Shown piece after piece: positions 31,297 through 35,554 of a DNA stretch of 64,000 nt. The stretch spans positions 372,001-436,000 of the forward strand of contig BPIE01000001.1 of the NCBI GenBank assembly GCA_026003935.1, in the 5' to 3' direction. This stretch comes from Tepidiforma sp. Its GTDB lineage: Bacteria; Chloroflexota; Dehalococcoidia; Tepidiformales; Tepidiformaceae. Each line of letters opens with the position of its first letter. The stretch's first letter is position 1. The translations under genes and the position numbers were made by a program. The notes under the pieces were generated by a model that was not told the DNA's origin, did no database searches, and was given only the letters and a program-made list of their open reading frames with translations.

Positions 31297-32622
31297 TCAG
31301 CGGCCCTGGAGGCGGCGCTCGACGGCATGGGCGTGTCCGGTGAGGCCTTCGGCGCGGGCGATGATGGCTGCTGCGCGGTTGAGCTCTTCGGCTTCCTCGT
31401 CGGGGAGGTTGACGACGGCCATCTTTTTGAGGAAATCGTGGACGCCGAGGGGGCCGGACCAGCGCGCTGCTCCGCCGGTCGGCATGGTGTGGCTGGGGCC
31501 GGCGGTGTAGTCGCCGACCGCCTCTGGGGAGGCCTCGCCGAGAAACAGCCCGCCGCAGTTCCGGACCTTCATGGCGTAGGCGGTCGGGTTTTCGATGCAG
31601 AGGCAGAGGTGCTCGGGGGCGTAATCGTTGGCGAGCTGGATGGCGTGGTCGATGTCGTTGACGAGGATGCAGCCGCCGCGATTTTCGAGCGCGGCGCGGG
31701 CAATTTTTGCGCGCTCGAGGTTCCGGAGCTGGCGCTCGATGGCGGCGGCAACCTCTTCGGCGAGGTAGTGCGAAGGGGTGAGGAGGATGGGGCTCGCGAG
31801 GGGGTCGTGTTCGGCCTGGGCGATGAGGTCGGCAGCGACAAGCTCGGGATTGGCGCTCTCGTCGGCGATGATCATGGTTTCGGTGGGGCCGTAGATGCTG
31901 TCGATGCCAACGTCGCCAAAGACCTGCCGCTTGGCGATGGTCACGAAGAGGCCGCCGGGGCCGGCGATCTTGTCGACGCGGGGGATGGTTTCGGTGCCGT
32001 AGGCGAAAGCGGCGATGCCCTGGGCGCCTCCGGCCTTGAAGACCGCGTCGACGCCGGCGATGTCGGCGGCGACGAGCTTGACCGCGGGGACGGAGCCGTC
32101 GGGGAGGACGGGACTGGTGAGGTAGACCTCGTCGACGCCCGCGACGCGGGCCGGGATTGCGCACATGAGCACGGTGCTGGGGAGCGGAGCGCGGGTGCCG
32201 GGAACGTAGATGCCGGCGCGCTGGATGGGGCGCGTAATTTGCCCGAGACCCTGCTGCTGAAAGTCGATGGTAGCGCCGCGGAGCTGGGTTTCGTGGTAGC
32301 GCCGAATGCGCTCGGCGGCGAAGCGGAGGGCTTCGATAAGGTCAGCCGGGAGGGCGTCGTAGGCGGCGCGAATCTCGTCCTGCTGGACGCGGAGGTCGGG
32401 CGTGTGCGCCCCGTCGATAGCTGAGTTGTAGTAGCGGACAGCGTTGTCGCCGTCGTCGCGAACGTCGCGGATGATGCGGCGGACGACCTCGTCCGGAGTG
32501 AGCTCCTGCCCAAAGGTGCGGAAGGTGGTCTCCCGGATCTCCATGGGAAGCTCTTCGATTTCGAGGGGGCGGCGGGCAAGGAGCGTTCGGCGGCCCTCTT
32601 CAGCGTTGCGGATTATGCGCAT
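31297..32622 (-). CDS. hisD: Histidinol dehydrogenase
   Basis: This 441-residue zinc enzyme performs the last two oxidations to L-histidine with NAD. The signature region (GPTETMIIADESANPELVA) and the catalytic SHTMPTGGAARWSG segment with the conserved His are visible. The ending is RLQGR. It overlaps the end of the phospholipase-like gene upstream by 10 nt and is followed directly by hisC. Length is normal. Confidence 0.97.
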   Translation of the reverse strand: MRIIRNAEEGRRTLLARRPLEIEELPMEIRETTFRTFGQELTPDEVVRRIIRDVRDDGDNAVRYYNSAIDGAHTPDLRVQQDEIRAAYDALPADLIEALRFAAERIRRYHETQLRGATIDFQQQGLGQITRPIQRAGIYVPGTRAPLPSTVLMCAIPARVAGVDEVYLTSPVLPDGSVPAVKLVAADIAGVDAVFKAGGAQGIAAFAYGTETIPRVDKIAGPGGLFVTIAKRQVFGDVGIDSIYGPTETMIIADESANPELVAADLIAQAEHDPLASPILLTPSHYLAEEVAAAIERQLRNLERAKIARAALENRGGCILVNDIDHAIQLANDYAPEHLCLCIENPTAYAMKVRNCGGLFLGEASPEAVGDYTAGPSHTMPTGGAARWSGPLGVHDFLKKMAVVNLPDEEAEELNRAAAIIARAEGLTGHAHAVERRLQGR

Positions 32623-33371
32623 CCCAGGTACCTCTCGACGGCGGAGCGGGCCGATTCGGTCGCTCGCTGGAGGAACGCGTCGACCTCGGCGTCGGTGATG
32701 TGGGCGATTGTCTCATCGAGGAGTTCGGGGAGCGAGTCGAGGAAGCTGTCGAGGGTTTCGCCTGGTTCGAGCCCGGCGTAGCGGAGATGGTTGGCGATCA
32801 TGGCGCGTGCGCGGTCCCAGTCGAGGTTGCGGGCGGCTACGTCGATCGAAACCTGGCGCCAGCGTTCGAGGGTCGGCGCGTCGATGAAGCCGGTCTCGAT
32901 GTCTTCGACGGTGCACGCGAGAGCGTTGCAGATGGCCGCCTTGAGCTCGGGGTCGGAGCCGTAGCGCCGATCGAGGTCGAACTGGAGGAGGCGGTCCATG
33001 ACATTGGCACGCATGGCTCCCCCGAGGTGGTCGTGACGGAGGAAGTAGGGACGATAGACGCCGGTGATGTACTGCTCGTCGAGGACGAGGTGCGAGATGT
33101 AGCCGGCGGCCCATGCGCGGGTGGACGGATTGAGCTTCTCGGGCGCGGCGAGGCGGCCGTACGCGGACAGGAACGCGGCGACGGAGTCCTGGTGGTTGTG
33201 TTCGTTCAGGTCGAAGAAGTGGGTACTGTAGCGGTCCTGCCGGGTGATGACGCGGATATCGGGGGAGGTAGCACCGAGGAGGTAGGCGCCGGAGGTCGCG
33301 GGTATCTCGTCGCGGCCGAGGTCGAGCGCGACCTGGCGTGCGACCACCATGTGGAGGGTGATGGGGGGCAT
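32613..33371 (-). CDS. Zinc-dependent phospholipase C-like protein inside the his operon
   Basis: This 252-residue protein resembles the zinc-dependent phospholipase C/S1-P1 nuclease-like family (PF00882). It opens MPPITLHMVVARQVA with an early His, followed by GAYLLGATSPDIRV, a FFDLNEHNHQDS segment and GYISHLVLDEQY, which supply the expected His and Asp metal ligands. There is no signal peptide, so it is probably cytosolic. It sits between hisG and hisD and overlaps hisD by 10 nt, although nothing in the family relates to histidine synthesis. The substrate is unknown. Confidence 0.8.
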   Translation of the reverse strand: MPPITLHMVVARQVALDLGRDEIPATSGAYLLGATSPDIRVITRQDRYSTHFFDLNEHNHQDSVAAFLSAYGRLAAPEKLNPSTRAWAAGYISHLVLDEQYITGVYRPYFLRHDHLGGAMRANVMDRLLQFDLDRRYGSDPELKAAICNALACTVEDIETGFIDAPTLERWRQVSIDVAARNLDWDRARAMIANHLRYAGLEPGETLDSFLDSLPELLDETIAHITDAEVDAFLQRATESARSAVERYLGCA

Positions 33372-34547: not shown

Positions 34548-35333
34548 TCATGTGGCGGCCGGGCGGACGGTTACGTCGGCCGCAGTCACGGTTTCGATGG
34601 TGCCCCCTTCACGGCGAACGACGAGGCCGCCAGTATCGTCGATGTCGATGGCGGTGGCGACGAATGGGTCACCGCCGACGGGGCTGACGAGGAGCTCGAC
34701 GCCGATGAAGCCATTGAGCTCGCGGAACCGGGCAACTGCTTCATCGAGGGGAGCGTCGAGCCAGTGTTCAAGCTCGTTGCAGAGGCGGGCGAGCAGCGCT
34801 TCACGGTCGACCTGGCGCCCCAGCACAGCGGCCAGGGAGGTCGCGATATCTCGGAGCTCGGGGTTGATCGAGGGGTCGAAGTTGACGTTGATGCCGATGC
34901 CGGGAAATGCGACGGGGCCGGCATCTCCGAATTCGGCGTCGATGAGCATGCCACAAGCCTTGCGCTGACCGACCCAGATGTCGTTGGGCCACTTGATGAC
35001 GGCTTCCGGAACGACCGAGCGGATGGCCGCGGCAACCGCGACCGGGACGCGGACGGGGAGGGTGCGGTGGATTTCAAGCTGACAGCGCAGGATGAAGGTG
35101 ACGTAGATGTTGGCCCCGGCAGGGCTGTAAAACGAACGGCCGCGGCGGCCCCGGCCTGCCGTTTGCTCTTCGGCGAGGACGGCTGTGCCGTGGATGGCGC
35201 CCTCGTCGGCTTCGCGACGCGCGACGTCCATGGTCGAGCGGACGACCGGGCGGTAGACGAGCGGCCGCCCCACGAGGCGGGTCCGCAGGAGGGATTGGAA
35301 GCGAGGGAAGTCGAACGGTGGCAGGGATGACAT
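34548..35333 (-). CDS. birA: Biotin--[acetyl-CoA carboxylase] ligase
   Basis: This 261-residue class I biotin protein ligase activates biotin as biotinyl-AMP and attaches it to carrier proteins. GRGRRGR (60-66) and KWPNDIW (about 114-120) are the biotinyl-AMP-binding motifs. A small C-terminal SH3-like domain follows. It has no N-terminal DNA-binding domain, so it is not a repressor. It is the first full gene of the birA-hisEG-plc-hisDCB operon. A terminator lies only 27 nt before its ATG, with no room for a separate promoter, so transcription must read through that hairpin. Confidence 0.93.
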   Translation of the reverse strand: MSSLPPFDFPRFQSLLRTRLVGRPLVYRPVVRSTMDVARREADEGAIHGTAVLAEEQTAGRGRRGRSFYSPAGANIYVTFILRCQLEIHRTLPVRVPVAVAAAIRSVVPEAVIKWPNDIWVGQRKACGMLIDAEFGDAGPVAFPGIGINVNFDPSINPELRDIATSLAAVLGRQVDREALLARLCNELEHWLDAPLDEAVARFRELNGFIGVELLVSPVGGDPFVATAIDIDDTGGLVVRREGGTIETVTAADVTVRPAAT

Positions 35334-35360
35334 CGGGCTGGCGCAGGATGAATCCACGTG

Positions 35361-35387
35361 AAAAGGGCCCCGGTAGTGCCGGGGCCC
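35361..35387 (-). terminator. Intrinsic terminator in the birA-his leader
   Basis: On the minus strand the 9-bp stem GGGCCCCGG/CCGGGGCCC with a 5-nt loop is followed directly by TTTT (35361-35364). It lies between the leader ORF and birA, the position of an attenuator. Confidence 0.8.
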
Positions 35388-35390
35388 TGG

Positions 35391-35484
35391 CGTAGCTAAG
35401 ACCGGAGTCTTAGGAGGTTCGGTGGTTCCTCCAAGAGGTCTAGGAGGAGGTCACCTCCAGCGCAAAGGTACGGTCGTAGCTACG
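35391..35484 (-). promoter_or_regulatory. Alternative RNA pairings in the birA-his leader
   Basis: Segments 35391-35403 and 35472-35484 are inverted repeats matching at 12 of 13 positions (CGTAGCTA plus GACC). The proximal one lies within the leader ORF just after its His codons and can also fold on itself (GTCGTAGCTACGAC, 35473-35486). The distal one can instead join the local hairpin CTAAGAC/GTCTTAG (35396-35413). Between them, repeated GGAGG and CCTCC blocks allow several exclusive hairpins. This is the layout of an attenuator, but I see no segment that directly competes with the terminator stem. Confidence 0.6.
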
Positions 35485-35499
35485 ACTATGATGGTCCAT
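35440..35499 (-). CDS. Leader peptide ORF before birA-his operon
   Basis: This 19-residue ORF, MDHHSRSYDRTFALEVTSS, is preceded by AAAGGAGGT seven nucleotides before its ATG. Codons 3 and 4 are tandem His (CAT CAT), the rarer His codon in this GC-rich genome. The downstream operon makes histidine. The RNA segment able to pair with the pre-terminator region follows immediately at codons 6-9. This fits a histidine-sensing leader peptide, though classic his leaders have more histidines. A free-standing small protein is the alternative. Confidence 0.55.
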   Translation of the reverse strand: MDHHSRSYDRTFALEVTSS

Positions 35500-35525
35500 G
35501 CGCATCACCTCCTTTCCTGGGGGGC

Positions 35526-35554
35526 AGCATGCGCCGGTCGGAGGAGGCTGTCAA
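35526..35554 (-). promoter_or_regulatory. Promoter of the birA-his leader
   Basis: A perfect TTGACA (35549-35554 on the minus strand) is followed after 17 nt by CATGCT (35526-35531, three of six consensus positions). Transcription would start about 20 nt before the leader ATG. Confidence 0.55.

Follow-up and report, generated by a model that had tools for sequence, protein, structure and literature searches.

The locus upstream of birA

The window, that is the whole stretch of 64,000 nucleotides of Tepidiforma sp. DNA analysed here, carries on its minus strand a compact unit made up of a promoter, a short ORF and an intrinsic terminator, directly upstream of birA and divergent to rpsB on the plus strand (Table 1). 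The genes downstream run in the order birA, hisE, hisG, a zinc-dependent phospholipase C-like gene, hisD and an aminotransferase gene (Pfam), the last of which is taken as hisC. The phospholipase C-like gene, at 32613-33371 on the minus strand, lies between hisG and hisD within the his run.

A first-pass annotation of this DNA had read the unit as a histidine-responsive attenuator controlling a birA-his operon by transcriptional read-through, and its description of the parts is largely borne out. The promoter has a perfect TTGACA, though its -10 element is weak; codons 3-4 of the 19-residue ORF are CAT CAT; segment A can pair with segment D at 12 of 13 positions, with a local hairpin as the alternative for D. 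The distance of 27 nt between the terminator and birA holds for an ATG at 35333, GTG at 35357 being the alternative start, and birA is without an SD. None of 200 dinucleotide shuffles folds as well as a 176-nt stretch that spans the leader (z -3.5). The consensus scan of the window reported neither the TTGACA promoter nor the terminator at 35388-35361, and a search of the window against Rfam at gathering scores returned tRNA only, leaving the element without a match, which counts against a classical his leader (presumably RF00514).

Table 1 Parts of the unit in the window and the gene linked to it
Feature	Position	Strand	Remarks
-35 element TTGACA	35549..35554	-	TTGAC in 22/30 aligned class leaders
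-10 element CATGCT, weak, 17-nt spacer	35526..35531	-	TANNNT in most relatives
SD1 AAGGAGGTGATG	35503..35514	-	GGAGG 8 nt 5' of start codon; near-invariant among collected copies
Short ORF, 19 codons, MDHHSRSYDRTFALEVTSS and stop	35440..35499	-	ORFs of 11-26 codons in the 84 representatives
AGT CGT AGC, ORF codons 5-7	35479..35487	-	
Segment A, pairing partner of D	35472..35484	-	duplex comparisons across leaders
GCGCTGG, includes part of P1', the stretch within the ORF that is complementary to the start-codon region	35457..35463	-	
SD2 GGAGG	35454..35458	-	8 nt before last sense codon
CCTCC, able to pair with SD2 or SD1	35446..35450	-	
Local hairpin of D, AAGAC-TCCG-GTCTT	35398..35411	-	
Segment D, 3' partner of A	35391..35403	-	pairing opens RBS in silico
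Intrinsic terminator hairpin and T-run	35361..35388	-	
birA (BPL_LplA_LipB and BPL_C)	34548..35357	-	linked gene, not a required part

Range among genomes

The unit precedes birA-hisE-hisG in five genomes of the same genus and three of a sister genus. A first sequence model, built from nine leaders (the window, the same genus and the sister genus), finds it in 36 of 38 genomes of the family, and a broader model built from 30 leaders in 37 of 38. The broader model matches 135 of 393 genomes of the class at E <=1e-3, all but one of these (134) with a single match, and 112 of 301 genomes of the phylum at E <=0.01; in both sets matches that were not read rest on model scores, and some with E >1e-3 are likely due to chance. 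Read from its matches were 40 loci, 39 of which proved to be leaders, and then 20 weaker loci, of which 16 were kept. Scanning named genomes for a pattern yielded 56 stretches, most of them Chloroflexota by title; ten were added to the data set, 11 were ordinary or unrelated genes (L133, L140, L144, L148, L152, L156, L162, L164, L167, L176 and L178) and the others largely duplicate genomes already in the set. Dropped as well were a false match (L074), a locus without a leader (L116), an ambiguous one (L187), two ordinary genes (L185 and L189) and a locus that was cut off (L199).

The 114 leaders kept, which include two from a single genome (L082 and L083), were reduced by k-mer clustering to 84 representatives, and the 70 of these with a confident terminator within 110 nt were used in the terminator-dependent tests. 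Alignments hold 30 of 49 leaders (A4) and 74 of the 84 representatives (A5). In the former the -10 element is of the TANNNT type, its A and final T being present in 30 of 30 class leaders.

Nearly all copies come from Chloroflexota, and at least one from Sysuimicrobiota, namely that of Candidatus Segetimicrobium (L172); two loci labelled Bacillota (L131 and L132) have the same ORF type. The presence of the unit in Armatimonadetes is doubtful: the single locus with this label (L160) has no supported switch, and its own D raises the energy needed to open its RBS. The unit seems to be absent from one family of small genomes in the window's class (f14), where eight of the nine listed genomes are without a match and the ninth (G174) has one weak match (E 0.006).

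In a permissive Rfam search of 12 short loci outside the window all five matches fell below the gathering scores of their families. Three of them overlap 3' parts of the element, to SorY in L184 (E 0.0059, 29.9 bits against a gathering score of 111 bits), sX6 in L190 and Acido-1 in L197, and are taken as chance hairpin matches because no two of them share a family. No description of the element was found by searching open-access PMC full text, passages of PMC9413887 and PMC2864571 among it.

The short ORF and its peptide

Relatives retain the short ORF, its long pairing with the 3' segment and the terminator, but not the His codons or the his genes. The start, stop and frame of the ORF are kept among the copies, and its indels within the family are multiples of three. 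The His codons themselves are lost within the family, where peptides begin MDYHSRSY.., MDDHSRSY.. or MDIPSRSY...; tandem His occurs in one of the 84 representatives, that of Tepidiforma, and 23 of the 84 peptides have no His at all, three of them (L051, L066 and L068) from the window's own family. The supposed target fares no better, since hisE/hisG follow within about 1.5 kb in 9 of 49 leaders, all from the window genus and one sister genus, while the other genera of the family have no his genes within this distance and, with the exception of L052, do have birA. The resemblance to a histidine attenuator in one genus arises because two variable codons there happen to be CAT CAT. The ORF, the alternative pairing and the terminator of the window, along with these two codons, are what such a regulator would show, and histidine-responsive control of a birA-his operon is nevertheless hardly credible given the lost codons and genes and the lack of an antiterminator in the folds of 70 leaders.

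The retention of start, stop and frame would also fit a gene for a functional micropeptide under tight translational control, including one like a type I toxin, as would the conservation of MD.HSRS and of a C-terminal EVTSS within the window family and an RBS control that resembles that of small toxin mRNAs. Between families, however, the peptides differ widely, and they are polar (Ser 18%, Arg 10.5%, Asp 8%), unlike type I toxins, which are hydrophobic peptides. The use of Ser codons further argues for a constraint on the RNA or the codons: AGT encodes 100 of the 143 Ser residues in codons 2-8 of the 84 representatives, as against 3 of 149 later in the ORF, with a similar trend for Arg as CGT (45/73 early, 9/93 later). 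A gene for a functional micropeptide is therefore improbable, and the early AGT/CGT bias could possibly reflect a linear RNA motif or a ramp of slow codons. The early codons of the ORF are also rich in NAY; a reading of this in terms of queuosine was considered and dropped.

A proposed switch at the ribosome-binding site

Within its own ORF the RBS, here the interval from SD1 to the start codon, has a complementary segment. Averaged over the 84 representatives the duplex reaches -20.3 kcal/mol against -14.9 kcal/mol for shuffled ORFs, and in 51 of the 84 it beats at least 57 of 60 shuffles, while 33 of the 84 fail; in L110, L171 and L183 the complementarity amounts to 14-16 base pairs. The variable half of this pairing covaries, with -13.1 for cognate and -10.5 for non-cognate combinations (0/5000 permutations), although within the window's family alone the covariation of the start region is weak (z -2.5, 48/5000 permutations).

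Segment A of the ORF pairs in turn with D, downstream of the stop codon. In all 5000 permutations the cognate A:D duplexes were stronger than the non-cognate ones, both for 45 leaders distinct among 49, the first set so analysed, and for 84, so that the 12-of-13 pairing noticed in the window goes beyond chance. With D taken as the 60 nt after the stop the mean is -37.6 kcal/mol against -29.4 kcal/mol non-cognate (84 leaders, 0/5000), a D that may include bases of the terminator because its length is fixed. When D is cut at the terminator the value is -37.5 against -24.3 kcal/mol for the leader's own D shuffled, and at least 57 of 60 shuffles are beaten in 63 of 70 leaders; these duplexes, computed only up to the terminator, say nothing on competition with it.

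The two pairings overlap, as on average 0.53 of the anti-RBS positions are shared with the D pairing, and at least half of them in 39 of 70 leaders. Folding, which here is thermodynamic and leaves out kinetics and proteins, gives the consequence for initiation. For a transcript that ends at the stop codon the RBS opens at a cost of 11.1 kcal/mol; the cost is 6.0 with the leader's own D, 5.97 once the terminator is included, and 10.5 with the D of another leader (70 leaders; own against foreign, Wilcoxon p 3e-12). In 52 of 70 leaders their own D cuts the cost by 2 kcal/mol or more, and in two (L080 and L160) it makes the cost higher, whereas a foreign D achieves such a cut on average in 19 of 70; in the window copy the cost falls from 12.7 to 6.7 kcal/mol. 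A sharp example is provided by L184 and L188, in which the RBS GGUGAUGCCC faces GGGCAUCACC or GGGCAUCGCC in the ORF and GGUGAUCCC or GCGAUGCCC in D. Going by these folds, D would open the RBS in the cell as well. Just 5' of the terminator GGCAAC or CTAGCAAC recurs across several lineages, in L078, L087, L090, L105, L111, L117, L194 and L195.

Anti-RBS segments such as CAUCACCUC in L092 and GCAUCACCUCC in L183 raise the question of a target elsewhere, since they are complementary to the common SD GGAGGUGAUG. The element could be a trans-acting RNA or a ribosome decoy, its anti-RBS or SD1 acting on other mRNAs or on free 30S subunits and the ORF serving to tune it, and its autonomy, its mostly single copy (one match in 134 of 135 genomes) and its strong terminator are in keeping with this. 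Yet the anti-RBS covaries with its own RBS and its own D, as expected for pairing in cis, which makes an action in trans rather unlikely, if still worth weighing.

SD2, the stop codon and the terminator

A second SD lies within the ORF. The best internal SD has a mean of -11.2 kcal/mol against -6.8 kcal/mol for shuffles and beats at least 38 of 40 shuffles in 55 of 84 representatives. The distance between its 3' end and the stop codon is 9 nt in 48 of 84 and within 5-10 nt in 76, over ORFs of very different length (11-26 codons). In the window the spacing from GGAGG to the start codon equals that from GGAGG to the last codon, both being 8 nt, and the start spacing is 8 nt in 59 of 84. A ribosome footprint placed on the stop codon makes the RBS costlier to open by 2 kcal/mol or more in 31 of 70 leaders and less costly in one. 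It may be surmised from these folds and spacings that a terminating ribosome docks at SD2 and that the RNA carries ribosomes one at a time.

In the folds the terminator takes no part in these alternatives. Its 5' arm pairs with its own 3' arm at a mean of 0.97 whether the leader is modelled without a ribosome, with one at the start or with one at the stop (70 leaders), the lowest single value being 0.75 in L197, and a search of the same folds for competition with its stem found none under any of the three ribosome states. The first-pass remark that no segment competes with the terminator stem therefore applies throughout, the hairpin forming whatever else pairs. Because it is formed in every modelled ribosome state, attenuation is unsupported, a histidine response especially, and intact units whose next gene is convergent tell against attenuation as well. 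What survives of the proposed leader regulator is the translated-looking ORF, the mutually exclusive pairings and their covariation in relatives, but not histidine, the his operon or attenuation. The distance from stop to terminator ranges from 10 to 93 nt, while that from SD2 to stop is near-fixed.

A frameshift fusion of the ORF to birA, for which the frame is open in the window and a few other leaders, was considered and rejected because the frame relation takes the values 0, 1 and 2 among 46 birA-linked leaders.

Neighbouring genes and autonomy

Neighbouring genes were read over about 1.5 kb downstream per locus (three of the 49 leaders had less than 0.7 kb to read). Of 68 copies within the class 63 are followed by birA, 46 of 49 in a first set and 17 of 19 in a second (L116 excluded); of four further class copies L135 has birA, while L128, L145 (428 nt readable) and L169 lack it. 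Beyond the class, 6 of 20 loci are followed by birA, as are two (L194 and L200) of 16 short stretches. Upstream, rpsB is found in 23 of 36 family leaders and in none of the 13 other class leaders read. Since neither rpsB nor the his genes have stayed in place alongside it, plain synteny does not account for the persistence of birA in the class.

Intact copies without birA are L052, L073, L078, L105 and L110, along with 14 of the 20 loci from other classes, and the exceptions within the class retain promoter, ORF, pairing and terminator. L052, the only such case among the other genera of the family, lies upstream of an alpha-amylase gene, and L073 and L078 are convergent to an abhydrolase gene and a GltD-like gene; the GltD-like neighbour recurs at L128 and L169, and L157 is a second reading of the L078 contig. 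Convergent methyltransferase genes and smpB are also among the neighbours. In another branch of the phylum the unit stands directly 5' of smpB, as identified by Pfam in L103 and from the N-terminus in L093, L097 and L100.

The unit is considered autonomous because intact copies also precede smpB, amylase or convergent genes. An autonomous small RNA gene has its own promoter and terminator, kept independently of its neighbours, and this is what the copies display; in three Chloroflexus- and Herpetosiphon-like loci (L181, L182 and L190) there is no promoter at the aligned spacing, which makes an own promoter less certain there. Comparison of the copies shows the unit, its range and autonomy, the covariation of RBS, anti-RBS and D, and the placement of SD2. 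On the same comparative footing the linkage to birA appears to be old and kept in the class, and not needed for the unit to persist, while the fact that birA is retained where rpsB and his are not argues for some link in cis and counts against full independence.

The unit could accordingly be a cis regulator of birA, in which translation of the ORF or another signal alters read-through of the terminator and copies without birA have been re-used or have a second role. In its favour is the position of birA directly 3' in the class leaders and in some loci beyond it, often within about 50 nt of the T-run (in L094 the ATG of birA touches it); in 9 of 41 an SD-like site precedes a birA start that is in frame. 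Against this stand a terminator that forms in every modelled ribosome state, a stop-to-terminator distance that varies unlike the SD2-to-stop spacing, and the intact copies with a convergent next gene. Furthermore, a -10 element placed for a leaderless birA mRNA occurs in 10 of 41 leaders, where 1.6 are expected from shuffles, which suggests leaderless birA mRNAs in these ten. Control of birA as the function of the element is therefore unlikely, with an effect in cis possible in some lineages. The TANNNT boxes concerned lie 4-9 nt before the in-frame birA start, for example in L049, L058, L069, L106 and L107.

A micro-mRNA that may regulate its own translation

The element is probably best described as an autonomous micro-mRNA gene with its own promoter and terminator, an ORF of 11-26 codons and a self-regulated RBS, a reading that we hold with some reserve and that is built on comparison and folding. 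As part of it, and with the same reserve, the peptide sequence would be mostly a by-product of constraints on the RNA. As the RNA emerges, the RBS would close once the complementary segment of the ORF is out, and synthesis of D just before termination would reopen it. A ribosome could then load at the very strong SD1 and open the stem during translation. Upon reaching the stop codon, with SD2 at an initiation-like spacing, its anti-SD would dock and hold it there. The parked ribosome would block D and the RBS would tend to close behind it, so that each RNA would carry roughly one ribosome.

What such a gene might deliver can be guessed to be a readout or buffer of ribosome status. A bolder version, which is speculative and on balance not expected to hold, would see in it a new class of micro-mRNA, of ancient origin and shared by Chloroflexota with a neighbouring phylum, that parks ribosomes: the near-perfect SD1 loads one ribosome, SD2 at its initiation spacing holds it at the stop codon and the three-part switch excludes a second, the whole acting as a buffer or sensor of free ribosomes.

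Several known systems share parts of this design. Amino-acid operon attenuators such as the his and trp leaders likewise have a short leader ORF, mutually exclusive stems and an intrinsic terminator just 3', but the element has no kept run of control codons and no antiterminator, its terminator is uncontested and it exists without a target operon. In the translational attenuators of erm and cat an SD is sequestered and a ribosome on the ORF changes the pairing; the element also combines a sequestered SD with an ORF, but the RBS that it sequesters is that of the ORF itself, and an SD-like site before birA downstream is found in only 9 of 41. The hok-type mRNAs of type I toxins are small and structured, with the 5' RBS and the 3' end in alternative long-range pairings, whereas the 3' segment of the element would open the RBS instead of closing it and the peptides are polar and rich in Ser, Arg and Asp. 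The peTrpL/trp attenuator of Sinorhizobium (PMC7298713) is similar in that its transcript resembles a leader and has a short ORF, the product of which reportedly acts in trans, but there the unit is part of a transcription attenuator, and the element has no fixed target gene.

That a small gene, mostly single copy, is kept across much of one phylum and occurs in at least a second suggests a cellular role so far unseen; Rfam does not recognise it, and the open-access PMC searches returned no report of it. The symmetry of SD1 to the start and SD2 to the last codon, the anti-RBS within the same RNA and the covarying D offer predictions on how an mRNA may meter its own ribosomes. The comparison with relatives also corrects a lead that was plausible from one genome.

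Two minor observations concern individual genomes. Many of those without a close HisG contain open frames of 470-960 residues with one or two weak HisG-like matches (L028-L031 and others). In G180 two identical copies of the leader and the start of birA (L082 and L083) lie about 1.3 Mb apart, perhaps through duplication or an effect of assembly, and L149 and L165 on CP070630.1 represent the identical two-copy case.
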